Of a DNA stretch of 64,000 nt, positions 24,526-41,137 are shown one piece after another. The notes below the pieces were generated by a model. That model saw only the letters and a program-made list of their open reading frames with translations. It was not told the DNA's origin and ran no database searches. The number at the start of each line of letters is the position of its first letter. The first letter of the stretch is position 1. The translations under genes and the position numbers were made by a program. Origin of the DNA: Nitrososphaerota archaeon (lineage in GTDB: Archaea; Thermoproteota; Nitrososphaeria_A; Caldarchaeales; JAVZCJ01); the NCBI GenBank assembly GCA_038874475.1, contig JAVZCJ010000009.1:1-64000 (forward strand). The letters run 5' to 3'.

Positions 24526-25572
24526 TTACGTATTTTTAAATTTTTCTCTCCATTTTATAATCGCTTGCGGATTAAGTGTTGTTTCAGGTACTTGTCCTCT
24601 TAATGCTTTAATGCAACAATTAACTTGTGCTAGTGTTAATGCTCTTTCCATTTCAGGAGTTAATCCGGAAACATGGGGAGAAAATACCAATTTATCATAA
24701 ATTTCTGGAGATAATAATGGAGAATTTATTGGAGGTTCTTTTTCAAAAACATCTAATGCAGCTCCAGCAATCCATCCTTCTTTTAATGCTTTTGCTAAAG
24801 CATTTTCATCTATTATTGCTCCTCTTGCAGTGTTAATAATGTATGCATTATTCTTCATCTTTTTTAATATTTCTTCATTAATCATATGCTTAGTTTCAGT
24901 TGTTAAAATTGTATGAATACATAAAAAGTCAGATTCTCTAATCAATGTATCAAAATCTACCATATTAACATCAAGTAGCAATTCTTTCTCTCTTGAAACA
25001 TATGGATCATATACAATTATCTTAACTCCCCAAGGTTTCATTAATTTTGCAACATAAGAGCCAATCCTTCCAAATCCAAGTATACCAATAGTTTTTCCTC
25101 TTATATAAACTCCTCTTAATTTATCATAATTGCTTAACCATTTATTTTCTTTAACATTCCTATCACATATTAAAATTCTTTTTGCTATAGCTAATAATCT
25201 TGCAACAGTGCCTTCTGCTACACCAATATAATCTTCTGGAACTGGCGTGTTTGCTACTATTACACCATATTTTGTAGCTCCTTCAATATCAATATTATCA
25301 ACACCTACTCCTGCTTTAACTACAATTTTCAATCTTGGTAAATTTGCAAAAATTCTTTCAGTAAGTCTTTCTCTTGCAATTAATAATATAGCATCAAAAT
25401 CTTTTCCTTTATCAATTATTTCATCTTCAGAATAGGGTTTATCTGCTTCTGTTTGAAGTCTGCCAATTTCAACACTAATACCTTTCTTTTCAAGAATTTC
25501 TTTACCTTCTAAATAAATATCTGGCATTGGTTCGATCCACCATACGCTTTTATCTTTTAATTCAGAATTCAT
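24526..25572 (-). CDS. D-isomer-specific 2-hydroxyacid dehydrogenase (SerA-like)
   Basis: NAD-dependent 2-hydroxyacid dehydrogenase. The nucleotide motif is GILGFGRIGSYVAKLM. The catalytic Arg is in NTARGAIIDE, the Glu in DVFEKEPP and the His in SPHVSGLT. At 348 residues it lacks the C-terminal ACT domain of long SerA proteins. It could be phosphoglycerate dehydrogenase or act on glyoxylate, hydroxypyruvate or a sugar acid. A long degraded intergenic region lies upstream. Confidence 0.87.
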   Translation of the reverse strand: MNSELKDKSVWWIEPMPDIYLEGKEILEKKGISVEIGRLQTEADKPYSEDEIIDKGKDFDAILLIARERLTERIFANLPRLKIVVKAGVGVDNIDIEGATKYGVIVANTPVPEDYIGVAEGTVARLLAIAKRILICDRNVKENKWLSNYDKLRGVYIRGKTIGILGFGRIGSYVAKLMKPWGVKIIVYDPYVSREKELLLDVNMVDFDTLIRESDFLCIHTILTTETKHMINEEILKKMKNNAYIINTARGAIIDENALAKALKEGWIAGAALDVFEKEPPINSPLLSPEIYDKLVFSPHVSGLTPEMERALTLAQVNCCIKALRGQVPETTLNPQAIIKWREKFKNT

Positions 25573-26319
25573 TCTTATTCCTCCTTTATTCTATAATAAC
25601 TTGATAATATTCAATTTAAAGATTTAAAACTTTTCACACATGCTTTGATTAACTTAATCATTTTTTATTTTTAATTACAAAATTCATTTTCAAATCTTTA
25701 GGTATATTAATAGAATTAAGGATTTCGGAAAATAGATTTTTAAAAAAATAGTTAAAGAAATTGAAATAAAATGCTCCCCTGTGCTAATTCCTGCTTATGC
25801 TATTACATTTTTAACATTTGCTTCAACTTTAGCAATGTATAAAAGAAAAAGCTGGGAAGAGGTGGGAATAAGGGAGTTCCATGAGTAAAATTATTTCTTC
25901 TTTTAACAGCCACCTTTGAGTAGCTGATTTTAGAATAGAGGAGAGTCTCTATGACATGTAAAAGAAATATATATTCAAAATGGATAGAAAAGAAGAAAGA
26001 AAGGTTTGAAAAATATATTGAAAAAAGTATAAAAAATATTTTTAAAAACAAGAAGAAAATTTAGAAAGAATATTAATAAAGAATGAATTGAAGAATATTC
26101 AAAAATATTTGATTATAAAGAGGGGGAAGTAGTAGCAATAGAGAAAGGAATATTTATTGAAGAAGGAGAAGTTATTTATAGTCCAAAGTATGTTTCTCCA
26201 ATAATAAAGAAAATATTGTTATCTTTACAGTGGCTTTAAAAATTTAATATTTATTATTCATTTAATAACTAAGAAAGAAAAATTTAATATTTTTAAATCT
26301 TACATAAAAATGATAAAAT
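25573..26319. other. 747 bp gene-poor stretch with remnants of coding sequence
   Basis: No intact gene. Two plus-strand open pieces look like relics: 25739-25888, whose frame has a hydrophobic run and ends KRKSWEEVGIREFHE, and about 26093-26239, ending IIKKILLSLQWL. Both lack a plausible start, and stops separate them. A lysine-rich stretch between them is interrupted by stops. The last 60 bp hold a TATA-like TTTTTAAATC for the gene at 26320. I do not recognise the parent genes. Confidence 0.45.
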
Positions 26320-27393
26320 ATGGGGAAATCATTAGAACGTTTTTATCAATCAATTATGCATAAAGAGCCTGATCAAGTTCCAGTATACATTGTTTCTTCC
26401 GAGCCTACATATGCAACATTTTGTGGAATAAAATTAATAGAGCTTTATAAAGATCCAGCAAAAATGCTTAAATGCCAATTATCATTCATAAAAAGATTTC
26501 CAAATGCATTATTTAGTATATTAAATTTATGGCCAAGATTAAGTGGTCCTGGGGATGGAATAACAACAGCATTTGGAGCTGAATTAGTTTGGTCAGAAAA
26601 TAATGCTCCTTGGACAAAACCAATTATTAAAGACCCAAAAGATATAGATAATCTTAAAACTCCAGATCCTTATAAAGATGGAAGATTACCAATTCAACTT
26701 GAAGGATTAAGATATTATATGGAAAAGGTTCCTATTGAAATTAGAGAAAAATATGGTTTATTAGATAATAATGCATATTGTCCTGGAGGAGTTGAATATG
26801 CAGCTCTTCTTATTGGTTATGATAAATTCCTTTTAGGTTTTCATAAATATCCTGAAAAAATACATAAACTTATAGAAATAATAACAGATTTATCAATAGA
26901 TTATGTAAAAGCACAAGAAAAAATTGTTGGAAAAATTACAAAAATATTTTTATCTGATCATTCTGCAACATTTATGTCAAGAAAAGAATTTGAAACATTT
27001 TGTGTACCATATTTAAAGAAAATAACAAATGCTTTTAAAAATGCTATAATAATTTATCATAATGAAGGTAATGTAAAACATCTTATAGATTTAATTCCAA
27101 AAATAGGAATAGATTGTTGGCATTTAGGTGAAAATATAGATTTGCTAAATACAAAGAAAATTATTGGAGATAAAATATGTCTTATTGGGAATATAGATCC
27201 AATTAATATTATGCTAAGAGGAGATCCTGAAAAAGTTGATGAAGCATGTAAAGATGCTATTAAAAAAGCAGCTCATAATGGAGGATATATATTAGCTCCA
27301 GGTGGTGGTTTTGTTGCTAATACTCCTCCAGAAAATATAGATGCTATGATAAAAGCAGCAGAAAAATATGGAAAATATCCTATTTTAGGATAA
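26320..27393 (+). CDS. Uroporphyrinogen decarboxylase-superfamily methyltransferase (MtaA/MtbA-like)
   Basis: TIM-barrel methyltransferase family that moves methyl groups to or from corrinoid proteins. SLERFYQSIMHKEPDQVPVY is the usual start, and the C-terminal LAPGGGFVANTPPENIDAM is a UroD-family motif. The position of the H-x-C zinc motif of MtaA reads YHNEGN, so the canonical zinc Cys is absent. The length of 357 fits. Monocistronic, flanked by decayed DNA on both sides, and about 1.27 kb upstream of the corrinoid-UroD operon. True heme-pathway UroD is unlikely given the sequence and context. Confidence 0.82.
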   Translation: MGKSLERFYQSIMHKEPDQVPVYIVSSEPTYATFCGIKLIELYKDPAKMLKCQLSFIKRFPNALFSILNLWPRLSGPGDGITTAFGAELVWSENNAPWTKPIIKDPKDIDNLKTPDPYKDGRLPIQLEGLRYYMEKVPIEIREKYGLLDNNAYCPGGVEYAALLIGYDKFLLGFHKYPEKIHKLIEIITDLSIDYVKAQEKIVGKITKIFLSDHSATFMSRKEFETFCVPYLKKITNAFKNAIIIYHNEGNVKHLIDLIPKIGIDCWHLGENIDLLNTKKIIGDKICLIGNIDPINIMLRGDPEKVDEACKDAIKKAAHNGGYILAPGGGFVANTPPENIDAMIKAAEKYGKYPILG

Positions 27394-27424
27394 TCGACTA
27401 AAATGAAGTGTTATACTCTGATTT

Positions 27425-28010
27425 TTAAGTTTTATATTAAAAAGCTATCAACTTAAGGCTATCCATGCTTTTATTCATTTTCCTGAAACTCTTAATTTAT
27501 AATTGGTAAACAAATATTAAATTGTTTTATTCTTCTTTTTAATTCACTAAATCATAATTCTATAGAATTCCTTATTCCAAATTTTTTTCTCCTATATTTT
27601 ACTTTTAGAAATTTTATTGGCAAAATAGTCCCTTATCAGTATAAATAATAGGAATTTTTAAGCATAAATCTTTAATTTTCTCTAAGAATGTTAAACATTC
27701 TCCAATACCGCATTCCTTTGTTACTTGAATTTTGATTAATTCTTCATTTTAATTCCTATTACATTCCATAAATAAGCCTTTTTTCTTAAATTCCAAATTA
27801 TAGTTTCATCTAAAGCTATAAATCCTCTTTTTTAATAATAATTCGCTAGCTTTAAAAAATTTTCTTATAGGTTCATAACTTATTTTATATCCTAATTCAT
27901 TTAATATCTTACTTACTTTTCTTAAGCTTAGTCCTTCTATGTATGCTTTTACTGAAATTGCTTTAATAAAAGCTGAAATTCTATTTCTAGAAAAAATTTT
28001 CTATTAGAAA
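27425..28010 (-). pseudogene. Decayed DDE transposase (insertion sequence remnant)
   Basis: Reverse-strand translation in shifting frames gives an archaeal IS transposase: ISVKAYIEGLSLRKVSKILN, then the PIIYTDKGLF strand carrying the second acidic residue, then FGIRNSIE and FSELKRRIKQFNICLP near the C-terminus. Several stops and frameshifts interrupt it and the N-terminal part is missing. It abuts the 5' side of the broken iolB, so insertion or its excision may have truncated that gene. A similar short fragment (TATCCATGCTTT) recurs near 39003. No intact terminal repeats were found. Confidence 0.7.
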
Positions 28011-28023
28011 ATAATAGTAAAAA

Positions 28024-28590
28024 TTGGCTCATAGTTATTCCAAATGCTCACAATCTTATTATTGCTTTAAGGTAAAAATAACAACTGATTATTTAAATTA
28101 TTCTATTGAACTAAATGAAAAAGATGTTTGTTATTTACCGGTACAGATTTCATTTGAAATTAATAAAGCTTCCCAAGAAGCATTTATTATTATAGCCGAA
28201 GCTTTTATGGATAAATATTTTTCACCTTATGTAAAAAGATTTAGAGAAATACCTCATTTTAAATCAGGTTACCCTTCTTATCAACGTATGGTATATGTAG
28301 CTATTGGAGAACAAGATAAGGCGAATCATTTCCTTGTCGGTTATACTGAAGGATTAAAAGGTAATTGAACGAGTTGGCCACCACATAAACATGATGATAA
28401 ACCGGAAGTATTCATGTATTATGGAATGAATGAAGGCTATGAATTGCAAATGCTTGTTACAAGGGAAGTATACAAAGTCGAAAATGAAGATGCATTAATA
28501 ATAGAAGGGATATCATCAAAATGTTGCTATTTCATCCTGTGGTATAAACTATTTATGGATAATTTATGCTGAAAAAAGTTTCTATTGGAA
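28024..28590 (+). pseudogene. iolB: Broken iolB (5-deoxy-glucuronate isomerase) remnant
   Basis: The IolB/KduI cupin hallmark GN-W-(S/T)SWPPHKHD is split by a stop: GN, TGA at 28366-28368, then TSWPPHKHDDKPEVF. The frame continues to about 28510, where a one-base shift is needed to recover GYHQNVAISSCGINYLWIIYAE, the IolB C-terminal GYHP...YYLW-type end. Upstream, VGYTEGLKGN and the FEINKASQEAF region match the first cupin half, but the N-terminal 50-100 residues are absent where the transposase relic begins. IolB normally isomerises 5-deoxy-glucuronate in inositol catabolism. The gene is certainly non-functional as read. Confidence 0.82.
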
Positions 28591-28659
28591 AAACACACAT
28601 GTGGTTAAGTCGATAGAAAAATTTTTATACTTATTTTATCTTAATATTAAGAGAGATGT

Positions 28660-29304
28660 ATGTTGTCCAAAGACATTTTAAAGCGGATTACTGACGGTAT
28701 AGTAAATCTTGAGTATGAAAACGTTAAGAAGCTGATTAATTCAGCCCTCGAGAAAGATATAAAACCTCTAGAGATATTGGAAGCTTTAAGAAAAGGTTTA
28801 GAAAAAGTTGGAGAAAAATTTGAGAAACAAGAGTATTTTCTTTCCGAGCTAATTATGGCTGGAGAGATTATGAAAGATTTATTAAATACTCTAAAGCCGT
28901 ACTTGTTTTCGGGAATTACTAAAGTAAAAGGGAAAATTGTACTGGGAACAATTTTAGGCGATTTGCATGATATAGGCAAAGATATAATTAAAACTCTGTT
29001 AATATCATCAGGGTTTGAGGTTTATGATTTAGGTATTGATGTGCCACCTGAACAATTTGTTAAAAAAGCTGAAGAGGTACATGCTGATATTATAGGAATT
29101 TCAGCTTTGCTTTCAACAACAGTACCTATCACAGCTGAAGTTGTTAAATATCTTGAAGAAGCCAATTTAAGAAAGAAAGTTAAAGTAATTATTGGAGGAG
29201 CAGCGGTTAGGAAAGAACATATTAAAAAATATGGTGTTGATGCTGCAGTAAATGATGCTATCGAGGGATTAAACATAATAAAAACATGGATGGGAATAAA
29301 ATGA
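28660..29304 (+). CDS. Corrinoid (cobalamin-binding) methyltransferase protein
   Basis: 214-residue methyl carrier, paralogue of the partial gene at 1-556. Residues 1-85 form the helical cap (EYFLSELIMAGEIM). The B12 domain has D101-L-H103-D-I-G in GTILGDLHDIGKD, where H103 is the cobalt ligand, then GIDVPPEQF, SALLSTTV and IIGGAAV. It is first in a plus-strand operon with two UroD-superfamily methyltransferases; its stop overlaps the next ATG (ATGA). A TATA-like TTTTTATACT lies at 28622-28631. The natural partners are the overlapping MtaA-like genes. Confidence 0.94.
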   Translation: MLSKDILKRITDGIVNLEYENVKKLINSALEKDIKPLEILEALRKGLEKVGEKFEKQEYFLSELIMAGEIMKDLLNTLKPYLFSGITKVKGKIVLGTILGDLHDIGKDIIKTLLISSGFEVYDLGIDVPPEQFVKKAEEVHADIIGISALLSTTVPITAEVVKYLEEANLRKKVKVIIGGAAVRKEHIKKYGVDAAVNDAIEGLNIIKTWMGIK

Positions 29305-30398
29305 AGTCACGAGAACGTGTTATAAAAGCTATTCAACATGAAGAACCAGATTATGTACCTTTAGATGGACAATTTAGAACAGAACAATTATATAATCTAA
29401 AAAAATATTTTGGTGTAAATGAAGATGAAGAAGTACTAATAAAACTTGGAATAGATTTAAGAACTGTTTTTATGGAACCATCAAATGAATTTAAAAGAAA
29501 AGCATTTCCATTAAGACAATATCCTGAACGATGGGTCATAAAAAGACCCGATGGTTTACTCGAGGACGAATGGGGTATAAGATATAGCGAGGGTGCAACA
29601 GGTGTTTATATACATTGGGTTTACCATCCACTTCAAGAGAAAGATATTTCAGAATACGAATTTCCTGATATTAATGCAGAAGGACGTTTTGAAAACGCTG
29701 AAAAAAACATTAAAAAATGGATGAATACTTATGCAACCGCAGCTAGCGTAGAAATGACTTTATTTGAACAGGCTTGGTACTTATGTGGCTATCGTAATTT
29801 TATTAAACAGCTTTATGAGAATCCTAATTATGTGAACAAACTATTAGATAAGTTACAATTATTTCGTGAGGAACAAATCAAAAGATTCATAGACATGGGT
29901 GTAGATATAATTAAATTAGGTGATGACATTGGTATGCAAACAAATATGATACTTTCACCAAACATATGGCGAAAATTTTTTAAACATCGCATTGAACAAC
30001 TGATTAACACAGCTAAAAAACATGGAGATGTATTTATATTTTATCATAGTGATGGCTACATAGAACCCGTGATATATGATTTAATTGAAATAGGCGTAGA
30101 TATTTTAGATCCTATTCAACCCGAATGCATGGATCCTGCTAAGATAAAAGAAAAATATGGAGATAAAATAACGTTACATGGCACAATTTCAATACAGGAA
30201 ACTTTACCATTCGGATCTATTGATGATGTAAAAAATGAAGTTTTAAATAGGATTAGAAAATGTGCATCAGGGGGAGGGTTAATACTAGGACCTGCGCATA
30301 AAATACAGATAGATACCCCTCTTGAGAACATTCTAGCATTGTATAAAGTGGCAAAGAAGTATGGTAAATACCCGATAAGGGGGTTGAAAAATTTATAA
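29301..30398 (+). CDS. Uroporphyrinogen decarboxylase-superfamily methyltransferase
   Basis: I choose the ATG at 29301 (MKSRERVIKAIQHEEPDYV) because it matches the family N-terminus and overlaps the upstream stop as ATGA; an ATG at 29286 is also in frame. Motifs: DIIKLGDDIGMQTNMILSP, then YHSDGYIEPVIYDL where MtaA has its H-x-C zinc site (here H-S-D), then GVDILDPIQPE and LGPAHKIQIDTP. Translationally coupled to the corrinoid protein, so likely its methyl donor- or acceptor-side enzyme. Substrate unknown. Confidence 0.85.
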   Translation: MKSRERVIKAIQHEEPDYVPLDGQFRTEQLYNLKKYFGVNEDEEVLIKLGIDLRTVFMEPSNEFKRKAFPLRQYPERWVIKRPDGLLEDEWGIRYSEGATGVYIHWVYHPLQEKDISEYEFPDINAEGRFENAEKNIKKWMNTYATAASVEMTLFEQAWYLCGYRNFIKQLYENPNYVNKLLDKLQLFREEQIKRFIDMGVDIIKLGDDIGMQTNMILSPNIWRKFFKHRIEQLINTAKKHGDVFIFYHSDGYIEPVIYDLIEIGVDILDPIQPECMDPAKIKEKYGDKITLHGTISIQETLPFGSIDDVKNEVLNRIRKCASGGGLILGPAHKIQIDTPLENILALYKVAKKYGKYPIRGLKNL

Positions 30399-30435
30399 AA
30401 AATGTAGTAAATATAATAAAAGAAGGTTTTTAAAA

Positions 30436-31557
30436 GTGATACAGGAATGGATTAAAAAAATAGGGGATATTATTAACCTGCAAAAAATAGAGGAAGCAAA
30501 AGAACTTCAAATAGCTGCATGGAACTTTAAATCAGTCGATTACCCTCCACTTATTATAGATTTTTCTTCTCCAATACAATGGCCTGCATTTAGTTACGAA
30601 GAAATTTTTAATAATAAAGATAAAATGTTGATACAGCAATTAGGAATAGTATACCCCCATTGCTTAATACAGGATGATTCTGTCCCGGGTATCCGGGCTA
30701 ATTATGGCTTAGTAGTAATTCCATCAGCTTTTGGTTGCGAAATAGAAATACCAAGGGAAGGCATGCCCTGGATTAAAAAGCGGCCACTCGAAGAAGAGCC
30801 ACTAAATTTAGATAAAATAGCATATCCAATGATCAATGAAGGATTAATGAAAAAAGTTTTAGAAACAAACGAGTATTTCTCTAAAATACTTAATAATACA
30901 GGTGTACGAGTATTTTTATCAGATACGCAAGGTCCATTAAATATAGCTTATTCCCTTATGGGTAATAAATTATTTACTTCATTTTATAAGAATTCCGAAT
31001 TCTTAAAGAAACTTCTTGATATAATTTCAGATGTTTATATCGAATTTTCATTAGCACAGAAAGAAATTATCAAAGAACCAATTACACAAGGAGTACATGG
31101 GTGGGATGGAGATGAGGGCCCATTTGGCATATGGATGGATAAAGGCGGAGTACGTATAGCCGATGATGTAGCAGTTATGGTTTCTCCAAAAATATATAAA
31201 GAATTTGTTATTCCTTATATTAGAAAATGCTTAAGACCATTCGATGGAGGAATGTTACATATATGTGGAAATGCAAATCACCTTCTTCATGAAATTGTTT
31301 CAATCCCAGAAGTTAAAGCTGTGCACTTTGGTAATCCAGAAATGTTTAATCTAAAAAATTTAATAGATCTTTTTCATAAAAAAGCCTGTATAATCTGGAC
31401 TGATAAACCAAAGAGAAAAAAACTTGATGTTTGGGTTAAAGAGATTGTAAATATTCTTGGTGGCTGTACAACAGGAATAATTTTCTCAACAAAAGTTTCA
31501 AATTATAAAGATGCTAAAGAACTTTTAAGTAAATGGAAGTTGGAATTTAGAAGATAA
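30436..31557 (+). CDS. UroD-superfamily methyltransferase with canonical zinc motif
   Basis: A 373-residue divergent member. It keeps the zinc-site pattern of MtaA/MtbA: H-I-C in GMLHICGNANHLL and a later Cys in ILGGCTTGI. These normally bind the thiol acceptor (coenzyme M in methanogens). Other landmarks are DTQGPLNIAYSLMG and WDGDEGPFGIW. The start is GTG, 37 nt after the previous gene, third in the corrinoid operon. It is convergent with the minus-strand methyltransferase, 15 nt apart. It may be the enzyme passing methyl from the corrinoid to a thiol or pterin, or act on the substrate. Confidence 0.75.
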   Translation: MIQEWIKKIGDIINLQKIEEAKELQIAAWNFKSVDYPPLIIDFSSPIQWPAFSYEEIFNNKDKMLIQQLGIVYPHCLIQDDSVPGIRANYGLVVIPSAFGCEIEIPREGMPWIKKRPLEEEPLNLDKIAYPMINEGLMKKVLETNEYFSKILNNTGVRVFLSDTQGPLNIAYSLMGNKLFTSFYKNSEFLKKLLDIISDVYIEFSLAQKEIIKEPITQGVHGWDGDEGPFGIWMDKGGVRIADDVAVMVSPKIYKEFVIPYIRKCLRPFDGGMLHICGNANHLLHEIVSIPEVKAVHFGNPEMFNLKNLIDLFHKKACIIWTDKPKRKKLDVWVKEIVNILGGCTTGIIFSTKVSNYKDAKELLSKWKLEFRR

Positions 31558-31572
31558 TTTGACCATTTAATA

Positions 31573-32661
31573 TTAAATCGGATATCTTCCATATTTTTTA
31601 GCAGTTTCATACATTAATACTGCATTTTCAACAGGGATGCCAGAATGAATTTCACTACTTGATCCAATAAAGAAACCTGATCCTGGGGCTGCAGCATTAA
31701 TACAATCTATAGTTGCTTTTATGATTTCTTTTGAGGTACCATGTGACAAAAGTTGAGTACAATCTATGTTTCCTATGAGTATTATTTTATCTCCATATTT
31801 TTCTTTTATTTCAGCAATATTCATACCTGCCGTTGGTTCAATAGGATTTAAACCATCAATTCCAGCTTCTACAAGATTATCTAATATGCGATTTAAGTTA
31901 CCATCACTATGAAAAAGAACTTTTATATTTTTCTTTTTTAATGGTTGCATTATTTTTCTTAGTCTTGGCAGAAATTCATTTTTAAGAAAACTTGGAGAGA
32001 ACATTAATCCGCCTCTATGAGCTATATCATCGCATATCATAAATGCCGGGCCTAATTCAAATTCTGCATAAATTTTTGTTATAATTGTAATAAATTTTGT
32101 GAATAGATCTAGTAAGTACTTAAGAATATTGGGGGCTAAATAAATTATTTTAGAAAAGAGCTGCAAACCAGTAAATGTATATGCTTCAGTAAGACATCCT
32201 TCTGTTGCGCCAATAAAAATTGTATGGGGCCAAAGAATATCGTGATATTTTTTAAATTCATCTAAATACCATTGAACCACTTCATCTTCGATAGGATACT
32301 TAGGTAAATTAGTCTCTAATTCCTCAATAGTAGTAAAAGGTCTACTTTTAATAAATTTTGTTGTTTGAGTGATATCAAATTGTGTTTCCCATCCTTCTCT
32401 GGGTATATCTAAAAATTTGAACCATGATTCAATTTTAAGATCTAGCCAATGTTTATTTTTCTTATTGTAAGGTAAGAGATGTAAACGTCTAGTAGCATCT
32501 ATGCCTAAAGCTTTATGGGTCTTTGATGCAACAATTAATGGGTCTCCTTGTCCACCAAACTTCTTAAATAGAATTTCATTATTAAGCTTATCCCATATGG
32601 GAACTCTATCAGGTTCCTCAAAATTTAATGCTCTAACGACTCTTTCATATGCATTTAACAT
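31573..32661 (-). CDS. UroD-superfamily methyltransferase, last gene of the ABC-importer operon
   Basis: A 362-residue member: AYERVVRALNFEEPDRVPIWD start, ICDDIAHRGGLMFSP, then LFHSDGNLNRILDNL (H-S-D at the zinc position, like 29301), GIDGLNPIEPTAGM and FIGSSSEIHSGIPVENA. It lies 40 nt downstream of the MalG-type permease on the same strand, so it is expressed with the importer and probably acts on the imported compound or its methyl group. This is the strongest physical link between transport and methyl transfer in the region. Confidence 0.85.
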   Translation of the reverse strand: MLNAYERVVRALNFEEPDRVPIWDKLNNEILFKKFGGQGDPLIVASKTHKALGIDATRRLHLLPYNKKNKHWLDLKIESWFKFLDIPREGWETQFDITQTTKFIKSRPFTTIEELETNLPKYPIEDEVVQWYLDEFKKYHDILWPHTIFIGATEGCLTEAYTFTGLQLFSKIIYLAPNILKYLLDLFTKFITIITKIYAEFELGPAFMICDDIAHRGGLMFSPSFLKNEFLPRLRKIMQPLKKKNIKVLFHSDGNLNRILDNLVEAGIDGLNPIEPTAGMNIAEIKEKYGDKIILIGNIDCTQLLSHGTSKEIIKATIDCINAAAPGSGFFIGSSSEIHSGIPVENAVLMYETAKKYGRYPI

Positions 32662-32701
32662 AACTTTATGTCTCCTAAATTATATTTAAGATTATTGCTA
32701 A

Positions 32702-33595
32702 TTATCCCCTTATAGCTCCCATCGTAAGACCTTTAACTAAATATCTTTGGATATAAAATGAAAATATAATCATTGGTATAATTGCAATTACACCTCCCGC
32801 CGCCGCAGGACCCCAAGTAGTTCCCCGCTCTACTTGAGACGTAAAAACAGTAGTATATACTGGTAATGTTTGTGCAACTTGTGTTGTTGTTAATGCTGTT
32901 GCTAAAAGTAATTCATTCCAGCACGTAATAAAACAAATTATAGAAGCTGCAACTAAACCTGGTAATGAAAGAGGTAAAACAATCTTTAAAAAAGAGTTTA
33001 CTCTATTACATCCATCAATTAAAGCAGCTTCATCTAACTCTTTTGGAATATCATTAAAGAAACCAACCAATACTAATGTAGCAAATGGAATATTAGTGAT
33101 TAAATATGCTATAATCAATGCCCACCACGTATTAACTAACTTCATATAATAAAATATAATAAAAATCGGTATAACAATTACAGCAGGGGGGATCATCCTT
33201 AAACCTAAGAGCCATGTAAATAAATTTTTCCCACCAAACTTAAGTCTTGCTATCGAGTAAGCTAACAATGCTCCTAAAAAAACAGATATCATCGTAGTTA
33301 AAAAAGAAACTATAGTACTATTTAATAGAAATGGAATTATACTTTGATATCTATATATAGCACCTGCTTCTGCCCATATGCCCCTCACATATCCTAAAAT
33401 TAATAGATAGTTATCTGGAATTAATTTAGAGGGCACCCATACAGGTGGAGAAGTAAAAACTTCTGACGGTGTCTTAAAAGAAGTTATTGTAAGCCAGTAT
33501 AAAGGGAAAAGATAAAATATTAATGTAAAAAACAACATGGTATAAATTACGATCCCTTTTATTTTTTCCCATTTAACAATTTTCATGTTTGCCAC
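32702..33595 (-). CDS. Carbohydrate-type ABC transporter permease (MalG family)
   Basis: Inner permease of a CUT1-type importer: six hydrophobic segments over 297 residues. The EAA loop is ELDEAALIDGCNRVNSFLKIVLPLSLPGL. The N-terminal FPLYWLTITSFKTPSEVF and the C-terminal KGLTMGAIRG are typical of MalG homologues. It overlaps the upstream permease by 13 nt. No ATPase gene is present, so a shared ATPase (MsmK/MalK type) encoded elsewhere must energise it. Confidence 0.92.
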   Translation of the reverse strand: MANMKIVKWEKIKGIVIYTMLFFTLIFYLFPLYWLTITSFKTPSEVFTSPPVWVPSKLIPDNYLLILGYVRGIWAEAGAIYRYQSIIPFLLNSTIVSFLTTMISVFLGALLAYSIARLKFGGKNLFTWLLGLRMIPPAVIVIPIFIIFYYMKLVNTWWALIIAYLITNIPFATLVLVGFFNDIPKELDEAALIDGCNRVNSFLKIVLPLSLPGLVAASIICFITCWNELLLATALTTTQVAQTLPVYTTVFTSQVERGTTWGPAAAGGVIAIIPMIIFSFYIQRYLVKGLTMGAIRG

Positions 33596-34491
33596 CCCAA
33601 TCTTCTTTCTAACTTTGTTATCCTTAATAATATTAAAGTAATTATTGTAAGTATTAGCAACATTATATATGAAAGAGAAGATGCATATCCCATATCTCCA
33701 AACCTAAAAGCCATTCTATATATGTAAAGTGATAAAACCTCTGTAGAAAATGCAGGTCCACCATAAGTAATTACATATACCGTATCAAAAATCTTAAAAG
33801 CTTCTATAATCCTTAGTGTTAATGCGATAGAGATAGCTGGTATAAGCATAGGCCATGTAATATGCTTAAAAATTTGTAATGGAGAAGCGCCATCAACTTT
33901 TGCAGCATCATATAACTCGATAGGAATTGCTTGAAGACCTGCTAATAATATTATAAACATAAATGGTGAAGACTTCCATACCTCAGTGATTATAATAGAA
34001 ATTTTAGCTAGTACAGGGTTCCCTATCAAATCTATATCTCTAAATCCAATAATATTAAGAATATAGGTTAATGGTCCAAATTTATCGTAAAGTAATCTCC
34101 ACGTAAGTCCACTTATAATTGGGGGGATCATCATAGGTATAATAAATAATAATTGAAGTATCCTTTTACCTTTAATTTTCTCATTTAATATTAGTGCTAA
34201 TGATAATCCTAAAATAAACTCTAAAATAATGCTACTAATAACCATTATGAATGTATTTATAAGAGATCCCCAAAAATATTTATCAGAAGATATTCTTATA
34301 AAATTTCCTAAACCAATAATTTCAGGCTGGCTCATTGACGTAAGATCAAAGCGTGAGAAAGCTAAGTATATCAAGTAAATAGTTGGAAATGCTATTAATG
34401 GAATTAAAATCATAAGAGATGGAAGAGAAAAAATAATTCTTGCATATTTATCAATTGATAATGAAGCCCTTAATAATTTTCCTTTTTTCAT
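33583..34491 (-). CDS. Carbohydrate-type ABC transporter permease (MalF/UgpA family)
   Basis: 302 residues with six predicted membrane spans. The EAA loop is IELYDAAKVDGASPLQIFKHITWPMLIPAI. GLGNFIRISSDKYFWGSLINT near residue 75 is the characteristic MalF/UgpA segment. Second gene in the importer operon, 38 nt after the binding-protein gene with a hairpin between, and overlapping the next permease. Confidence 0.92.
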   Translation of the reverse strand: MKKGKLLRASLSIDKYARIIFSLPSLMILIPLIAFPTIYLIYLAFSRFDLTSMSQPEIIGLGNFIRISSDKYFWGSLINTFIMVISSIILEFILGLSLALILNEKIKGKRILQLLFIIPMMIPPIISGLTWRLLYDKFGPLTYILNIIGFRDIDLIGNPVLAKISIIITEVWKSSPFMFIILLAGLQAIPIELYDAAKVDGASPLQIFKHITWPMLIPAISIALTLRIIEAFKIFDTVYVITYGGPAFSTEVLSLYIYRMAFRFGDMGYASSLSYIMLLILTIITLILLRITKLERRLGWQT

Positions 34492-34497
34492 ACATTA

Positions 34498-34524
34498 ACC
34501 CTTTTTTTAAAAAAAAGAAGGGGG
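34498..34524 (-). terminator. Hairpin between binding-protein and permease genes
   Basis: On the minus strand CCCCCTTCTTTTTTTT and AAAAAAAGGG form an imperfect stem, starting a few nt after the binding-protein stop. Such hairpins commonly cause partial termination or protect the 3' end, giving more binding protein than permease. Pattern-based only. Confidence 0.45.
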
Positions 34525-34529
34525 AAGTT

Positions 34530-36056
34530 TTAAGAAAGCCCTGCTTCTTTAATAATTCTTATCCATTCATCAGAACAAGCTATTAAAGCATCTTCTGCTT
34601 TGGCTTGACCTACAAATGCTGGGCTTAAAGTAGCTCCCATACTATACTCAAGTTTTGGTAAAACAGGTATCTTTGGTCTGGTCGTGACTTTGCCTGTTTT
34701 AAAGGAGGCACCTAAAACCCAATGATCTGGATGCTTTTCCTTCAAAACTGGGTCTTCAAATGTAGACCAACGATATGGTGTTTCCGTAAATGTCTCATAT
34801 AGATATTTACAATTTTCCTTATTTGTCATAAATTCTATGAACATATATGCTTCTTTTTTATGCTTAGAATCATTATTTATAGCAACATTCCATCCTCCTA
34901 GATGTGGTGCAGGTAGCATACACACAGCAACTTTTCCTCTAATCGGAGAGTCTGCTCCTGTAAGATAAGGCCAGTATCCACCCCATCCAAAAAACATAGC
35001 AGTTGTACCAGCTCTAAATGGATCACAACTAGTAACCCAATCTAAGTCAACAGCAGCAGGTGCAAACTTCGTCATTTCAATATATTCATTTAAAGCTTTT
35101 ACACCTAAATCACTTATTCTTGGATCAAAAGCGGGTTTATGATCACTTGTAAAGTAATCTCCCCAATCTGGATCGATAGGACCAAATACTTTTAATCCTT
35201 CAGGAGACCTACGATAATATCCGAAATAACAGCAGTAAGTAGAAAGTAAAGGATCACCAACTTTTGCTGGTATAGAAACACCATATTGTTCTCCTTCTCG
35301 CCATTTAACTTTATTTGTAAAGAATTCTGCGTAGTCTCTTAGCATCTTCCAATCTAATTCAAATAATTCTTTATCTGTTGGCATTTTAAGCTCATAACCA
35401 TAGAGCTCCTTAAATTTTGCTTTATATTCAGGGTTTTCAAATAGATCTGTTCTATAGAATAAAGTTAAACATCCATCAACGAATGGTAAGCCAATATTCT
35501 TACCCTTCCAGAAGCAATATGTATTACGTAATATTTCTGGTACATCATCCCAATCATAAAGTGGATTTACTATTTCAGGATATGCCTTCCTAATTTCATC
35601 AAGATCTGTAAGATACATGCCTACTGTTCCAATCCAATGGTAAGCTATAGAGGCAATATCATAAGTAGCAGCATGTGTAGAAAAATCTGTTAATAACTTA
35701 TCTAAAAGAATATCAAAACCTATTGGAATAACTTCTATTTCTATTTCAGGATGCAATTGCATAAATCTTTTTGCAGCATCTTCAGCACTATCCGACATAC
35801 CATGAGCACTCATAATGGCTGCTGTTATTTTTACCTTTGTTGGGGGGGCTATCCCTGTTGCTGTAACTGTTTTTGTAGCAGTCTCTGTCTTTGTTACAGT
35901 TGCAGCTCCGACAGTTTCAGTTTTTGTAACTGTTTTTTCTACTACTTCTGCTGGTTTAGCTAAATAACCTAAAGCTCCGCCAACAACCAAACCACCAATT
36001 GCAGCACCTGTATATTTAAGATAATCTCTTCTATTAATCTTTTTTTCTTCTCCCAT
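34530..36056 (-). CDS. ABC transporter substrate-binding protein with Tat-like signal
   Basis: Extracellular solute-binding protein family 1. NRRDYLKYTGAAIGGLVVGGALGYL (residues 8-32, shown only to mark the region) is a twin-arginine-like signal. It is followed by a Thr/Val/Lys linker (about 37-68, TVTKTETV units) tethering the domain to the membrane. The mature part has FMQLHPEIEIEVI, LLTDFSTHAATYDIA and WGGYWPYLTGADSP, typical of sugar-binding proteins. The length of 508 is normal for archaeal CUT1 binding proteins. First gene of the operon binding protein-permease-permease-methyltransferase. The ligand is not predictable by eye. Confidence 0.88.
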   Translation of the reverse strand: MGEEKKINRRDYLKYTGAAIGGLVVGGALGYLAKPAEVVEKTVTKTETVGAATVTKTETATKTVTATGIAPPTKVKITAAIMSAHGMSDSAEDAAKRFMQLHPEIEIEVIPIGFDILLDKLLTDFSTHAATYDIASIAYHWIGTVGMYLTDLDEIRKAYPEIVNPLYDWDDVPEILRNTYCFWKGKNIGLPFVDGCLTLFYRTDLFENPEYKAKFKELYGYELKMPTDKELFELDWKMLRDYAEFFTNKVKWREGEQYGVSIPAKVGDPLLSTYCCYFGYYRRSPEGLKVFGPIDPDWGDYFTSDHKPAFDPRISDLGVKALNEYIEMTKFAPAAVDLDWVTSCDPFRAGTTAMFFGWGGYWPYLTGADSPIRGKVAVCMLPAPHLGGWNVAINNDSKHKKEAYMFIEFMTNKENCKYLYETFTETPYRWSTFEDPVLKEKHPDHWVLGASFKTGKVTTRPKIPVLPKLEYSMGATLSPAFVGQAKAEDALIACSDEWIRIIKEAGLS

Positions 36057-36564
36057 AATTCATCATATTTAACTAGTAATCGAAAAGTATTTAAATTTTT
36101 CTTTTTTAAAAAAGCTCTGTAAAATTAAGTATTATCTTTATAGCTAACTTATATAAGCTTTTTATGATTATTTTTAAGCATAAAAGAACTCCTTTAGAAA
36201 TTATTTTCTATGGTATATTTATATATCTAGATCAAAATCTTCTAGACTTTCATCTGAAATACTAAAAAACTTTTATAAAAAGAAGCTGTAGAGCAATTCT
36301 TTATTGTAACATAGATGTAAAATTTCTCTGAAAGAATACGTGCTTTAATGATAAATGTAACTGTAAACATATAAAAGGAAAAAAAAAAATACACAGTTCT
36401 ATTAAAAATCCTTCTTTAGGGAAAAGCTTTAAAAAAGGAAATCATGTATAAATACTTGAAAAGAAGAATATTGGAAGTAGCAATTTATATGTAATACCTA
36501 ATTTCACAGGGCTACTCCCGGTATCGAAAAACTTATATATTTTCAATTTTACATTAATAATTCG
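36057..36564. other. 508 bp divergent intergenic region
   Basis: Lies between the importer operon and the divergent hydrolase. It holds the two promoters at its ends: AATTTAAATAC on the minus strand near 36090 and ACTTATATAT on the plus strand at 36531-36540. A small GC-rich patch, CACAGGGCTACTCCCGGTAT (36507-36526), sits just upstream of the latter and could be an operator. No open frame, tRNA or clear sRNA is seen. Its length for such packed DNA suggests regulation. Confidence 0.45.
36531..36540 (+). promoter_or_regulatory. TATA box of the tandem hydrolase gene
   Basis: ACTTATATAT is centred about 29 nt before the ATG at 36565, suggesting a leaderless transcript. The GC-rich patch directly upstream is where a BRE or regulator site would lie. 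Confidence 0.5.
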
Positions 36565-38916
36565 ATGTTAATGTTAAAAAAAGAATTAGGTGATTGGCTT
36601 CAAATTCAGCATGAAATGATGCTTTCTATAGATTCCCCGACATTTAGACTCATGATGTTGGATTTTATTGAAAATTACACTGAAAATTTAGTTAGAAAAT
36701 CCTTGCCAAAAAATATAGAAGAATGGAAATGTATGAAAGATAATATAAAAGAGAAACTTCTAAAATCTCTTGGTTTACTGCCTCTTCCAGAAAGGAAGGA
36801 GCTGAAAATCGAAAAAACAGGTATTTTAAAAAAAGATGATTACCATATTGAAAAAATAGTTTTTGAAGCTTGGCCTAAAATTAAAGTAACTGGTCATTTA
36901 TATGTGCCAGAAAAAGCCTCTTTTCCTGCACCAGCTATACTTTATGCTTGTGGACATTGGCTTGAAAATGGAAAATTTGAGCCTGATATACAAGCTTGTT
37001 GTATAGGTTTAGCTAAACTTGGTTTTGTAGTTTTTGTAATAGACCCCATAGGCCAAGGAGAGAGAGGGCCTAGATGGTATGATCATGGACATTTAGAAAT
37101 ACTTTTGGTAGGTTTGTCGCAAGCTGGTTTTAGTGTATGGGAACATATTCGAGCAATAGATTTACTTTCTTCTTTAGATATAGTAGATCCAAATAAAATA
37201 GGTATGACCGGTGCTTCTGGTGGTGGATTATATACTCTTTATACTTCAGCCATAGATGAACGTATTAAAGTGAGTGTTCCAGTTTGTTATATAACCTCAT
37301 TTTTACCATTTTTAAAATCTATGAGAGGTGCGAATTGGAACGGAGGAATAGATCTTTGTAATCAGGTTCCAAATATAATATCTTATGCTGATACTTATGA
37401 GACTGTCGGACTCTTAGCTCCTCGTCCATGTATGATAATTACTGCTTCAAAAGATCCACAATTCACTCCTCAAGCTGCTAAAGATGTTTACGATAAAGCG
37501 TCAATGATATATGACCTATATAAGGAAAAAAATAAGATCGCATTGGTAGAGGTGGATTCGGTTCATGGATATTGTAAAGAAATGCGTGAAGCAGCATATG
37601 GCTGGTTCATGAAATGGCTTATGGGTAAAGGAAATGGTTCTCCTATTTCAGAACCTATCTTTACGGTAGAAGATCCACTTTCATCAGAAATAAGATGCCT
37701 ACCTACACCCCTCCTCCAAGGTTCATTAATAACTCAACTTGTGGAAGAATTAGATAAAAAAAATATTTATAAACTTCCTAAAGACAAAAATGAGTTAATT
37801 GAATATCAAAATTTTGTAAGAGCTAAACTAATAGAGATCTTAGGCAACTTCCCTGAAAAAAGTGATTTAAATGAAAGGGTTACGTCTATAGGTAAATTTA
37901 AAGATTTTGTGATAGAACGTGTTTTATTCTCAAGTGAACATGGTATCCAAGTACCTTCTTTCTTAATATTACCTAATAAAGTAGATTTAAAGTCTTTCAT
38001 AATATATTTGGATGATAAGGGAAAAGAACAATGTTTAAAAAATATGTTATCTGACTTCTTTATTAAGCAGAAAATACCTATTTTTGCTATAGATGTCCGT
38101 GGAATCGGAGATACAAAATATGCTGAAGAATTTGAAATTGCTACAGACTCATTGATGATAGGTAGAAGTCTTTTAGGACAAAGAGTTTGGGATATTATAA
38201 GAGCCGTTGACTATCTTTATAAAAGGTTTTCTTCAACTCATGTTAAAATAATTGGTAATGGTTATATGTCAGGATTATTAGCTTTATTAGCGGCAAGTTT
38301 AGATGAAAGGTTAGAAAATGTTTTCGTGAATTATACTTTATATTCCTTCAGATCTCTTATCAGAGAGAAACAAATATTCCCCGCTTCAGTATTTCTATTC
38401 AATATATTAAGATACTTTGATTTACCACAAATTATTTCTTCTATTGCACCTAGATATTTGACACTTAGTAATCTTGTAGATGGTTTAGGTTATCCAGTAC
38501 CTATGGAATATATAAAAAAAGAATATTCCTTTTTATTAAATGTCTACAAACTTTTAGAGGCGAAAAACAACATTCAAATTTCAGCTATTCCTTCAAAAAT
38601 TCTGATAAAAAATTTACAAAAATGGTTTAGGGAACAATTAGGTTTAACAACTTTAGCAGCAAAAATTTATGCTCAAAATATTAATCAGAAAGTAGTAACA
38701 TTCGAATCTCTTATGAAAAATACTGATTTTAATAAAAAACGTTTAAGAAAAGCCTTCACCGAATTACTTAAAAAAGAAATTTTAAAACCGAGTTATTCTT
38801 ATACGGAGAAATATACTTTAATTCCTTTACCAGAAGTTTTTAAAAAAATTAATATTTCTTTAGAAAATGATTTTAATGAGAAAATGTTTATCCCCTTTAA
38901 AAAAATAATCAAGTAA
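36565..38916 (+). CDS. Tandem alpha/beta hydrolase (acetyl-xylan-esterase-like) with winged-helix-like C-terminus
   Basis: 783 residues, three parts. Residues about 1-350: an active-looking esterase domain with the nucleophile elbow GASGG (S218), acid in ITASKDPQF and His in EVDSVHGYCKE. VTGHLYVP and DPIGQGER resemble acetyl xylan/glucuronoyl-type esterases. Residues about 385-680: a second hydrolase fold in which the elbow reads GNGYMSG, so the nucleophile is displaced; probably inactive. Residues about 690-760: helices with TFESLMKNTDFNKKRLRKAFTELLKKE, winged-helix-like. Divergent from the importer, probably deacylating or demethylesterifying its substrate. Cytoplasmic; no signal peptide. 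Confidence 0.78.
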   Translation: MLMLKKELGDWLQIQHEMMLSIDSPTFRLMMLDFIENYTENLVRKSLPKNIEEWKCMKDNIKEKLLKSLGLLPLPERKELKIEKTGILKKDDYHIEKIVFEAWPKIKVTGHLYVPEKASFPAPAILYACGHWLENGKFEPDIQACCIGLAKLGFVVFVIDPIGQGERGPRWYDHGHLEILLVGLSQAGFSVWEHIRAIDLLSSLDIVDPNKIGMTGASGGGLYTLYTSAIDERIKVSVPVCYITSFLPFLKSMRGANWNGGIDLCNQVPNIISYADTYETVGLLAPRPCMIITASKDPQFTPQAAKDVYDKASMIYDLYKEKNKIALVEVDSVHGYCKEMREAAYGWFMKWLMGKGNGSPISEPIFTVEDPLSSEIRCLPTPLLQGSLITQLVEELDKKNIYKLPKDKNELIEYQNFVRAKLIEILGNFPEKSDLNERVTSIGKFKDFVIERVLFSSEHGIQVPSFLILPNKVDLKSFIIYLDDKGKEQCLKNMLSDFFIKQKIPIFAIDVRGIGDTKYAEEFEIATDSLMIGRSLLGQRVWDIIRAVDYLYKRFSSTHVKIIGNGYMSGLLALLAASLDERLENVFVNYTLYSFRSLIREKQIFPASVFLFNILRYFDLPQIISSIAPRYLTLSNLVDGLGYPVPMEYIKKEYSFLLNVYKLLEAKNNIQISAIPSKILIKNLQKWFREQLGLTTLAAKIYAQNINQKVVTFESLMKNTDFNKKRLRKAFTELLKKEILKPSYSYTEKYTLIPLPEVFKKINISLENDFNEKMFIPFKKIIK

Positions 38917-39071
38917 GCTTTATAGAAAGAATATGGGAAAAACCTTTAAATTTCATAAAGAAGAAACATTTAGCGTAACAACTTATATTTTTAATAAGGG
39001 TTATCCATGCTTTAAATCCTAATCGTTCATCTTTCAATTAAAGATTGTAAAGAAATTTTTTCAGAAGAATT

Positions 39072-39629
39072 TTATCTCTTAAAAATTCCATATAAATGAA
39101 TTTCTTTATTTAATGGAGAAACTTTTAATATTTTCCTATTTTTTCTTATATATTCTAAATTTTCATTTTTAATGGAAAGTCTTACTTCTTCATTTAAATA
39201 TGGAATTCTTAAAATTTTATCTCTTTTATAATATTCGACAATAGCATCTGGCTGTGTAATAGATTTTGTTACTTTTGGTTCAATTAATTCTTCTATTTTT
39301 TCAGCTTCATTTTCTTCACGTTCAAGGATTTTAAAATCACATCCATAATCTCTTATTAGCCATTTTCCTTTTGTTATTTCAGAATGTTCAGTATCTATAC
39401 TTATATTTCTTATTGATTGATCTGATGGATCTTTTGATGATATAAGATATCCAAAACCCTCAAAGCCTTTCTTTTCTTCAAAACCTATTGACCACCATCC
39501 ATTCTTTAGTCTTATACCTATACCTCCTATTTCAGATTTCCAATCTCTTTCATAAAATACCTCTGCCATACGAGTTCCTAGTCTTATATATTTTATTATC
39601 GAATCTCCATTCCAGTCTATTATTTTCAT
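39072..39629 (-). CDS. Hypothetical protein
   Basis: 185 residues, beta-rich and charged, no family recognised. WNGDSIIKYIRLGTRMAEVFYERDW and GGIGIRLKNGWWSIGFEEKKGFEGFGYL look like stacked beta strands of an open sandwich or barrel. The C-terminal third (KILRIPYLNEEVRLSI) is also strand-rich. ATG start, native codon use, single gene, divergent from cysS. Function unknown. Confidence 0.55.
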   Translation of the reverse strand: MKIIDWNGDSIIKYIRLGTRMAEVFYERDWKSEIGGIGIRLKNGWWSIGFEEKKGFEGFGYLISSKDPSDQSIRNISIDTEHSEITKGKWLIRDYGCDFKILEREENEAEKIEELIEPKVTKSITQPDAIVEYYKRDKILRIPYLNEEVRLSIKNENLEYIRKNRKILKVSPLNKEIHLYGIFKR

Positions 39630-39728
39630 TCTTCTTTCTTAAATAAAATGATTCTCTAAAATATAACTTTTTTTATCTATTTAACTAAAAAATATTTATT
39701 TAACACTTATATGAAGGAAATGTTAGAA

Positions 39729-41135
39729 ATGGCACTATATCTCTACAATACTTTATCAAGAAAAATTGAAGAATTTAAGCCGCTTAAAGATAAAATAATT
39801 ACTATTTATTCTTGTGGTCCAACAGTTTACGATTCGCCACATATTGGGCATGGAAGACATGAAATAATCATGGATTCTTTTACAAGATTTTTGGAATATA
39901 TTGGCTATGAAGTTAGGTATGTTGAAAATATTACAGATATTGATGATAAAATTATTGCAAAAGCAGAGAAAATGGGTTTAACTCCAGGAGAAGTAGCTTT
40001 AATTTTCACATTAGATTATTTTGAACAAATGGAAAAATTAGGTGTTAGAAGAGCTTGGAGGCATCCTCAAGCAACAAATCACATTCAAGAAATGATTGAA
40101 ATGATTAAAAGTTTAATTGAGAAAGGGTATGCATATGAAGTTGATGGAGATGTGTATTTTTCAGTTAATAAATTTAAAGAATATGGAAAATTATCTAAAC
40201 AAGATATAAATTCTTTAAGAAAAGGTGCTAGAGTAGAAATTGATGAAAGAAAAAAAGATCCAATAGATTTTGCTTTATGGAAAAAGTCCAAACCAAATGA
40301 GCCTGCTTGGTCAAGTCCATGGGGCATGGGTAGATGTGGTTGGCATATAGAGTGCTCTGTAATGTCGATTAAATATTTGGGAGAAACGATAGACATTCAT
40401 GCAGGTGGTGAGGAACTCATCTTCCCACATCATGAAAATGAAATTGCACAAAGTGAGGCATATACTGGAAAACCTTTTGTAAGATATTGGATGCATCATG
40501 GATTAATAACAATAAAAGCAGAAAAAATGGCTAAATCTATTGGAAATGTTATTCTCATAAATGAGTTACTAGAACGCTATGATGCGGATACTTTTAGATA
40601 TTTTGTTCTTTCAGCTCATTATAGAAATCCATTAGAATATTCAGAAGAATCAATGATAGCAGCTCAAAATACAATGAATAATGTAAAAAGAGCAATTAAG
40701 AAAATCGAATATGCTTTATCTTATCCTTCTAAAGAAATAAAAGAGGAAATTAATATAGAAATTGAAAAATTCAAAGAAGAAATTATTAAAGAGCTTTCTT
40801 ATGATTTTAATACTCCAAAAGCTTTAGCTTTGCTTATAGAATTAACTTATAAAATAGCAGATAATGCTAATAAAATAAATTCTGAAGATTTAAAAGAATT
40901 TTTAAAAACTATTAAAGAACTATGGAATGCGCTTGGTTTCTTTCAAGAAAAGAAATTAGATAAAAAAGAAATTCTCATAAAAGATTTATTAAAAATCATA
41001 CTAGAAATTAGAGAAATTGAAAGAGAAAAGAAAAATTATGAATTATCAGATTTTATAAGAGAAAAATTGAGAAAATTGGGTATTGAAATAGAAGATACTC
41101 CATATGGAACTTTTTGGTTTTTAAATAGGAGCTAA
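39729..41135 (+). CDS. cysS: Cysteinyl-tRNA synthetase
   Basis: Class I synthetase. The HIGH motif is SPHIGHGRH after the zinc Cys in YSCGPTVYD. The remaining zinc ligands are in WHIECSVMS and FPHHENEIAQ. The KMSKS loop is EKMAKSIGN. I start at the third in-frame Met (39729, MALYLYNTLSR) because it matches the family N-terminus. ATGs at 39711 and 39720 are also in frame, and the TATA-like AATATTTATT at 39691-39700 fits 39720 or 39729. The next gene starts 2 nt after the stop. Confidence 0.95.
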   Translation: MALYLYNTLSRKIEEFKPLKDKIITIYSCGPTVYDSPHIGHGRHEIIMDSFTRFLEYIGYEVRYVENITDIDDKIIAKAEKMGLTPGEVALIFTLDYFEQMEKLGVRRAWRHPQATNHIQEMIEMIKSLIEKGYAYEVDGDVYFSVNKFKEYGKLSKQDINSLRKGARVEIDERKKDPIDFALWKKSKPNEPAWSSPWGMGRCGWHIECSVMSIKYLGETIDIHAGGEELIFPHHENEIAQSEAYTGKPFVRYWMHHGLITIKAEKMAKSIGNVILINELLERYDADTFRYFVLSAHYRNPLEYSEESMIAAQNTMNNVKRAIKKIEYALSYPSKEIKEEINIEIEKFKEEIIKELSYDFNTPKALALLIELTYKIADNANKINSEDLKEFLKTIKELWNALGFFQEKKLDKKEILIKDLLKIILEIREIEREKKNYELSDFIREKLRKLGIEIEDTPYGTFWFLNRS

Positions 41136-41137
41136 AA

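Follow-up and report, generated by a model that had tools for sequence, protein, structure and literature searches.

The window analysed here, 64,000 nucleotides of contig JAVZCJ010000009.1 (C9) from the genome of a Nitrososphaerota archaeon (1.92 Mb, 97.5% complete), contains an accessory block of genes for UroD-superfamily proteins, a corrinoid protein, a sugar-type importer and an esterase-like enzyme. In our tentative reading, UroD-type proteins of this block may act as methyltransferase I in the corrinoid-dependent O-demethylation of a methylated carbohydrate that the importer brings in. The observed basis consists of the genes, their operon order, their motifs and fold, pathway genes elsewhere in the genome, and a genome-level association of UroD loci with importers.

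All nine genes named in a preliminary description of the window (four divergent UroD genes, a corrinoid protein, a solute-binding protein (SBP), two permeases and an esterase-like enzyme) are intact at the coordinates given there, and an importer operon does end in a UroD gene. The genes form two convergent operons whose ends lie 16 bp apart: the plus-strand operon runs from the corrinoid protein through UroD#2 to UroD#3, and the minus-strand operon, with overlapping or tightly spaced genes, from the SBP through the two permeases to UroD#4. UroD#1 lies upstream of the plus-strand operon; the esterase-like and SBP genes are transcribed divergently. The reported ATGA coupling of the corrinoid protein to a UroD was confirmed as a stop-start overlap at 29301-29304, the conserved start of UroD#2 being a Met that is residue 6 of its listed open reading frame (ORF). 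Because of this translational coupling, UroD#2 is the first candidate for methyltransferase I. No MttB-, MtgB- or MtaB-type protein is encoded in the block, as had been noted; homologues of MttB and MtmB were found elsewhere in the genome as uninterrupted ORFs, and a search of the genome for MtaB found none.

Under the proposed mechanism, the host would be an anaerobic archaeon with a tetrahydromethanopterin (H4MPT) one-carbon (C1) pathway and the block a catabolic island. The importer would take up a methoxylated carbohydrate (an O-methylated sugar, uronate or polyol), the esterase-like enzyme would strip an ester decoration, and UroD-fold protein(s), most likely UroD#2 and possibly UroD#4 and UroD#3, would act as methyltransferase I, handing the O-methyl group on to the corrinoid protein encoded with UroD#2, in its Co(I) state. 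RACo, encoded elsewhere in the genome, would keep the corrinoid reduced, and an MtrH-type enzyme, also encoded elsewhere, would move the methyl group to H4MPT, with oxidation possible via Mtd, Mch and Fwd. The methyl transfer itself, the carbohydrate as donor and the identity of the acting UroD are the parts of this scheme that we infer.

The downstream C1 and corrinoid pathway envisaged in the preliminary description has its genes outside the block: locus L005 (C2:183-203 kb) encodes RACo, Mch, FwdA, B, C and D, Mtd, one UroD and an MtrH-type methyltransferase, with RACo, MtrH, Mtd, Mch and FwdABC called by family models and FwdD below its cut-off. No methylene-H4MPT reductase was identified in the host genome, a gap in the proposed pathway. 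The archaeal character of the host fits its gene content, including the H4MPT pathway and MtrH, and a proteasome-type subunit gene lies inside the window. The corrinoid protein of the block has the architecture of MtaC, MtbC and MtgC, with a B12-binding_2 cap, a B12-binding domain and the DxHxxG motif (present as DLHDIG, residue 101), and the family models that it matches are pyl_corrinoid/MtbC/MtgC-like, below their equivalog cut-offs. The genome encodes approximately 18 PF01208 proteins and 10-11 corrinoid proteins, several of the latter coupled to UroD genes.

The four UroD-type proteins and their known relatives

Phylogenetic trees were built from 73 rows, and from 63 rows after removal of long branches; the only reference proteins in them were HemE of E. 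coli and incomplete MtaA and CdmB sequences. Both trees place each of the four UroD-type proteins of the window in a different clade, none of which includes HemE. The hemE equivalog model gave 82.9 bits for UroD#1 and 30.7 bits for UroD#2 against a cut-off of 303, with no listed match for UroD#3 or UroD#4. Thus, the clustering with heme-pathway UroD that the preliminary description had named as counting against its reading is not seen, and a HemE-like function is ruled out by the model scores and the trees.

All four proteins score 37-124 bits with the MtaA/CmuA subfamily model (cut-off 235). The H/C/C positions of MtaA bind zinc. At the aligned positions, which lie in HICG and APGCG of MtaA itself, the window proteins read HEG (UroD#1), HDH (UroD#2), HC- (UroD#3) and HDS (UroD#4), and within the host genome the full HCC set is limited to L001, beside the MttB gene, and L008. 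Since the zinc set is incomplete in all four, none is taken to be a thiol-side enzyme, and an MtaA/MtbA/MtsA-like coenzyme M or thiol methyltransferase is ruled out for each of them. With an HxD or HxE motif and a third residue of His, Gly or Ser, these sites could carry a metal that takes an oxygen ligand, or could lack metal altogether, as in CdmB, in which no zinc was seen (PMC13222342).

The relationships of the four proteins differ. UroD#1 has CdmB (9rui, 1.9e-17) as its best PDB match and groups with it at an SH-aLRT of 86, CdmB being partial and on a long branch. UroD#2 has no phmmer match to CdmB; its nearest kin are a host paralogue at L006 (52%) and proteins of bacterial metagenome-assembled genomes (MAGs) of Poribacteria, Spirochaetales, KSB1, Latescibacterota, Atribacterota and Armatimonadota (31-44%), and its AlphaFold model (pLDDT 86.5) has MtaA (4ay8/4ay7) as the nearest PDB fold, with UroD structures next. 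Close kin of UroD#3 were found only in archaeal family f16 (40-42%). The kin of UroD#4 are at L008/L082 (46%) and, more distantly, at the spirochaete locus L038 (3598-4662, 30%), beside an importer.

Some UroD-superfamily proteins are known as O-demethylases for aromatics (MtvB, OdmB, VdmB and MtoB; PMC13222342, PMC8359953) and others as haloalkane dehalogenases (CdmB and CmuA; PMC13222342). The activity proposed for the block is therefore not new in kind, and the earlier suggestion that a UroD-like protein performs the substrate step has established biochemistry behind it in MtvB, OdmB, VdmB, MtoB and CdmB (PMC13222342). The host shares with these systems the UroD fold, a separate corrinoid protein encoded alongside, and a RACo-type activator and MtrH/MtgA-type second methyltransferase in the genome, but UroD#2-4 belong to other clades, only UroD#1 grouping with CdmB, and the block has a CUT1 sugar importer as neighbour, with the second methyltransferase and activator encoded elsewhere. 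The UroD superfamily also takes in MtaA, MtbA and MtsA and the Mlps encoded by type 1 mlp gene clusters (PMC10418091), and MtaA is the solved fold nearest to UroD#2; no window UroD, however, has a complete HxC...C triad, and all score far below the MtaA/CmuA cut-off. Brockarchaeota, whose methylotrophy rests on MtaB and MttB, also combine archaeal corrinoid methyltransferase systems with use of plant polysaccharides (PMC8065059), whereas the host genome lacks MtaB and has expanded UroD-type proteins. A literature search, mostly of open-access papers, showed among the papers listed no report of UroD or corrinoid demethylation of sugars, nor a corrinoid route by which O-methyl sugars or methylated cyclitols would be demethylated anaerobically. 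The parts of the block are of known kinds; new would be the combination of importer with corrinoid methyltransferase and the proposed sugar substrate.

Two further observations concern corrinoid-related genes of the host. The MtmB homologue (L013 8534-9910) and the MttB homologue (L001 4077-5534) are full-length with no in-frame amber codons, and are therefore probably non-pyrrolysine types. A corrinoid protein gene at window 2-565 is truncated by the contig end, and since its start is near-identical to a copy at C8:38123-38692 (L012 9572-10270), the end of the contig may be a repeat or a recently duplicated copy.

The importer and the choice of donor

The importer is of CUT1 type, comprising an SBP_bac_1 protein and two MalF/MalG-like permeases; no ATPase subunit gene is present in the block, and a shared ATPase elsewhere in the genome was not searched for. 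The nearest solved structures to the SBP are sugar-binding proteins (5iai at 1.8e-19, then maltose- and trehalose-binding proteins). Its N-terminus (RRDYLKYTGAAIGG) resembles a twin-arginine translocation (Tat) signal. This Tat-like region of about 60 residues is 75-80% identical between the SBPs of otherwise different importers (window 34530-36056, L002 4202-5764 and L006 7479-8585), as if signal regions had been copied between loci.

The pairing of UroD with a carbohydrate importer, drawn in the preliminary description, is commoner than chance in the host genome. When 12 UroD loci were compared with 15 sugar-type permease loci, using family positions taken from searches, five of the 12 were found within 4 kb of sugar-type permeases (1.1 expected, P=0.003), as were four of 11 without the window locus (P=0.013). 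Counting all PF00528 permeases gave six of 12 (P=0.002), one of the six being not sugar-type. Locus L006, a further UroD locus, has a ribose-type importer, and L002 holds together an importer, a weakly UxaC-like isomerase, a UroD, PIG-L, an MFS transporter and a GH4 glycosidase, an arrangement that mostly recurs (L079) in the nearest relative compared, G001, a sister species of the same genus. Taken together, the UroD loci outside the window have among their sugar genes a GH4 alpha-glucosidase-like one, a weak UxaC match and GH38. Lactate-racemase (LarA)-like genes were also noted near UroD loci of both the archaeon and the spirochaete (L001, L009, L038 and L077).

It is unlikely, in our estimate, that the donor is something other than a carbohydrate, with the corrinoid-UroD operon demethylating a methoxylated aromatic, a methylated amine or a sulfur compound and the importer unrelated. 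Known UroD-type methyltransferase I enzymes do act on methoxy-aromatic and haloalkane substrates, MttB and MtmB homologues are also present in the host genome, and the corrinoid and importer operons, being convergent, are separate transcripts; however, UroD#4 is itself a gene of the importer operon, UroD loci are associated with sugar importers even when the window locus is left out, and the Archaeoglobus aromatic system has MFS transporters, not a CUT1 importer (PMC8359953).

Within the reading preferred here, demethylation of a carbohydrate, 4-O-methylglucuronate is an attractive guess for the substrate, suggested by the content of L002 and the type of esterase. O-methyl sugars, among them 4-O-methylglucuronate, and methylated cyclitols occur commonly in plant matter. 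The preliminary description had allowed for a methoxylated or methyl-esterified carbohydrate or a cyclitol: the association with sugar importers fits a carbohydrate, and the cyclitol rests on a dead IolB-like gene. An inositol route was rejected, the only IolB-like gene being a pseudogene with no relative at any locus compared.

The N-terminal domain of the esterase-like protein matches BT1017, an alpha/beta-hydrolase pectin methylesterase (6goc, PMC7939467), at 4e-11. The Ser-Asp-His triad of BT1017 is kept as Ser218, Asp297 and His334, which are invariant in five members of family A2. The resemblance to BT1017 is distant and confined to one domain: a second hydrolase-like domain and an extension at the C-terminus set the window protein apart, and it has no Pfam match to the DUF3826 of BT1017. 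Some of its archaeal relatives (about 30-32%) adjoin an L-fucose isomerase or an apiosidase-like protein, which fits use of plant polysaccharides. The earlier idea of a methyl ester, which draws on this distant likeness of one domain to BT1017, is weakened: such an enzyme would release methanol, and methanol feeding MtaB is ruled out in a genome without MtaB.

Recurrence in other genomes

Several results from other genomes, and one from the block, weigh against the proposed demethylation. The preliminary description had proposed recurrence of the gene set as a test; pieces of the set, but in no case all of it, turned up in the relatives and bacterial loci examined. Locus L038, from a Spirochaetales MAG, speaks for the reading in that a UroD#4-like gene, an SBP and its two permeases, a gene of the MttB family and a UroD#2-like gene stand there in a row, surrounded by lactate-racemase-like and epimerase-like genes; against it, the MttB-type proteins of L038 could be what really acts as methyltransferase I. 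A recurring whole set was also sought through the esterase, whose relatives were found in G051, G072, G079 and G058 with a UroD (about 5 kb away) only in G058, and through the SBP, which gave distant matches only. UroD genes are expanded in the archaeal families f10, f12, f16 and f19, with 10-22 scored matches in most genomes (up to 38 first-look candidates, 22 of them scored) and at least 16 PF01208 proteins in most of G049, G051, G053, G057, G064, G072, G078 and G079 (10 in G064 and 7 in G053). Most of these archaea have exactly one methyltransferase corrinoid protein with B12-binding_2 (PF02607), and its occurrence with at least 20 UroD in several of them implies that a dedicated partner is not needed by every UroD. 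The surroundings of 54 UroD regions in more distant relatives show no enrichment of sugar-type permeases (1 vs 0); xylose-isomerase-like (TIM barrel) genes are modestly so (23 vs 2 in controls, P=0.014 uncorrected, 11 tests), and enrichment of other sugar genes is weak or absent. The presence of four different UroD in one block also suggests mixed roles.

Either one corrinoid protein serves many UroD, or many UroD are not corrinoid enzymes. On the latter side, some or all of the UroD-like proteins would have an undescribed sugar- or acid-modifying activity, the corrinoid protein serving UroD#2 alone, an explanation that we consider rather improbable. It draws on the relatives with at least 20 UroD and one methyltransferase corrinoid protein, on the frequent position of those UroD, as a rule with no corrinoid gene nearby, beside genes for DUF6785/DUF6784 and sugar isomerase-like proteins, and on the wide variation of metal-ligand positions among UroD. 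Against it, the host has 10 corrinoid proteins for about 18 UroD, several of them coupled, and one corrinoid protein can in principle supply many methyltransferases; furthermore, G064 has its single corrinoid gene in one cluster with RACo, UroD and GH4, and G051 has its own near a UroD.

The DUF6785/DUF6784 membrane protein, a candidate transporter, is encoded by 19 genes in 17 of the 54 UroD regions and in none of 18 control regions, with seven genes less than 100 bp from UroD on the same strand; a literature search for the domain names found no paper. The protein is about 670 residues long (e.g. L117:555-2579, and in L083, L084, L091, L121, L122, L124, L125, L126 and L136).

A bolder and rather unlikely extension of the demethylation reading is that UroD-fold proteins with HxD or HxE make up a large and diverse class of enzymes that O-demethylate methylated carbohydrates with the help of corrinoid proteins, each plugging its own transporter (ABC, MFS or DUF6785/DUF6784) and sugar genes into one C1 pathway, with a single corrinoid hub for at least 20 of them in several archaeal lineages. 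If UroD-type proteins do demethylate such sugars, their large, poorly annotated expansion in these archaea and several bacterial phyla would gain a function, and anaerobic C1 metabolism an extra source of methyl groups. The island is compact, and the sister species without it provides a natural negative control.

Origin and contents of the block

The block (Table 1) is an accessory indel, recently gained or lost. The flanks in G001 match the window at 90-96% DNA identity, window position 25598 joining 39668 across about 125 bp (blastn to L159: 12375-16981 matches window 20972-25598 at 90%, 17106-19900 matches 39668-42460 at 96%, with nothing between). The block has a G+C content of about 31% (30-34%) against about 25% (21-28%) in the flanks; terminal repeats or a tRNA site were looked for at its ends and not found. 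In G001, the esterase has only a weak match (4.7e-6) and the SBP no close one.

Table 1. Features of the accessory block in the window.
Feature	Position	Strand	Evidence
Accessory block, ~14.0 kb, absent from sister species G001	25599..39667		blastn vs locus L159, G+C
UroD#1, motif H-x-E...G, CdmB-side clade, most likely a relocated resident gene	26320..27393	+	PF01208 1.8e-56
IolB (5-deoxy-glucuronate isomerase)-like pseudogene	28024..28615 (approx.)	+	PF04962 over cut-off, one TGA inside
Methyltransferase corrinoid protein, B12-binding_2 + B12-binding	28660..29304	+	PF02310 3e-24, PF02607 2.6e-17
UroD#2, motif H-x-D...H, ATGA-coupled, candidate methyltransferase I	29301..30398 (listed ORF from 29286)	+	PF01208 6.3e-27
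UroD#3, H-x-C without a third ligand, third gene of plus operon	30436..31557	+	PF01208 1.5e-17
UroD#4, motif H-x-D...S, last gene of importer operon	31573..32661	-	PF01208 4.7e-23
Sugar-type ABC permease, MalG/UgpE/GlcU-like	32702..33595	-	PF00528 6e-20; NCBIfam GlcU/MalG below cut-off
Sugar-type ABC permease, MalF/UgpA/GlcT-like	33583..34491	-	PF00528 1.5e-18; NCBIfam MalF/UgpA below cut-off
Extracellular solute-binding protein (SBP), Tat-like N-terminus	34530..36056	-	PF01547 3.5e-24
Two-domain alpha/beta-hydrolase, esterase-like, extra C-terminal stretch	36565..38916	+	PF00326/AXE1/GCE_fung
185-aa protein, family without name, within block	39072..39629	-	no Pfam match

UroD#1, which the preliminary description had treated as a member of the block, appears not to be original to it. 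It is 94% identical to a G001 gene (L078) located between orotate phosphoribosyltransferase-like and carbamoyltransferase-like genes (neighbours named by eye), and the host genome has the same neighbourhood at C2:403164-406536, where all that is left of UroD#1 is 75 bp (C2:405015-405089, 80% identity) of its C-terminal coding end, a remnant at the former home locus (C2:404950-405122). A 37% relative in G051 likewise adjoins an orotate phosphoribosyltransferase-like gene (L131). The G001 counterpart, the remnant and the G051 relative beside the same neighbour make it most likely that a resident gene, UroD#1, was relocated into the block. The IolB-like pseudogene, between UroD#1 and the corrinoid gene, has an in-frame TGA (28366-28368) and a frameshift near 28505, as judged from three-frame translations; when the stop is written as X, the fragment has TIGR04378 IolB as its best match (1.6e-9), and it is the sole KduI/IolB match in the host genome.

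These features bear on a further explanation, which we consider very improbable, that the block was transferred as an island of mixed origin, has no common pathway and is now decaying cargo. Its absence from G001, its higher G+C content, the pseudogene, the arrival of UroD#1 from elsewhere and the position of UroD#2 among bacterial sequences in the tree would all be expected of such cargo, but all other genes are intact with operon-like spacing, and the DxHxxG motif of the corrinoid protein and the triad of the esterase are kept.

The 185-aa protein at the end of the block has homologues near two other UroD loci (L003 1-600 and L007 1400-2023; phmmer 1e-40 and 4e-34), so that three UroD loci of the host genome have a member of this family, which has no match in Pfam, close by. 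Two more indels relative to G001 were noted in the window: a second at 18735-20971, with genes that by eye resemble those for galactokinase and galactose-1-phosphate uridylyltransferase, and a third at 12030-13145, with a Thr-rich repetitive ORF (12139-13098).

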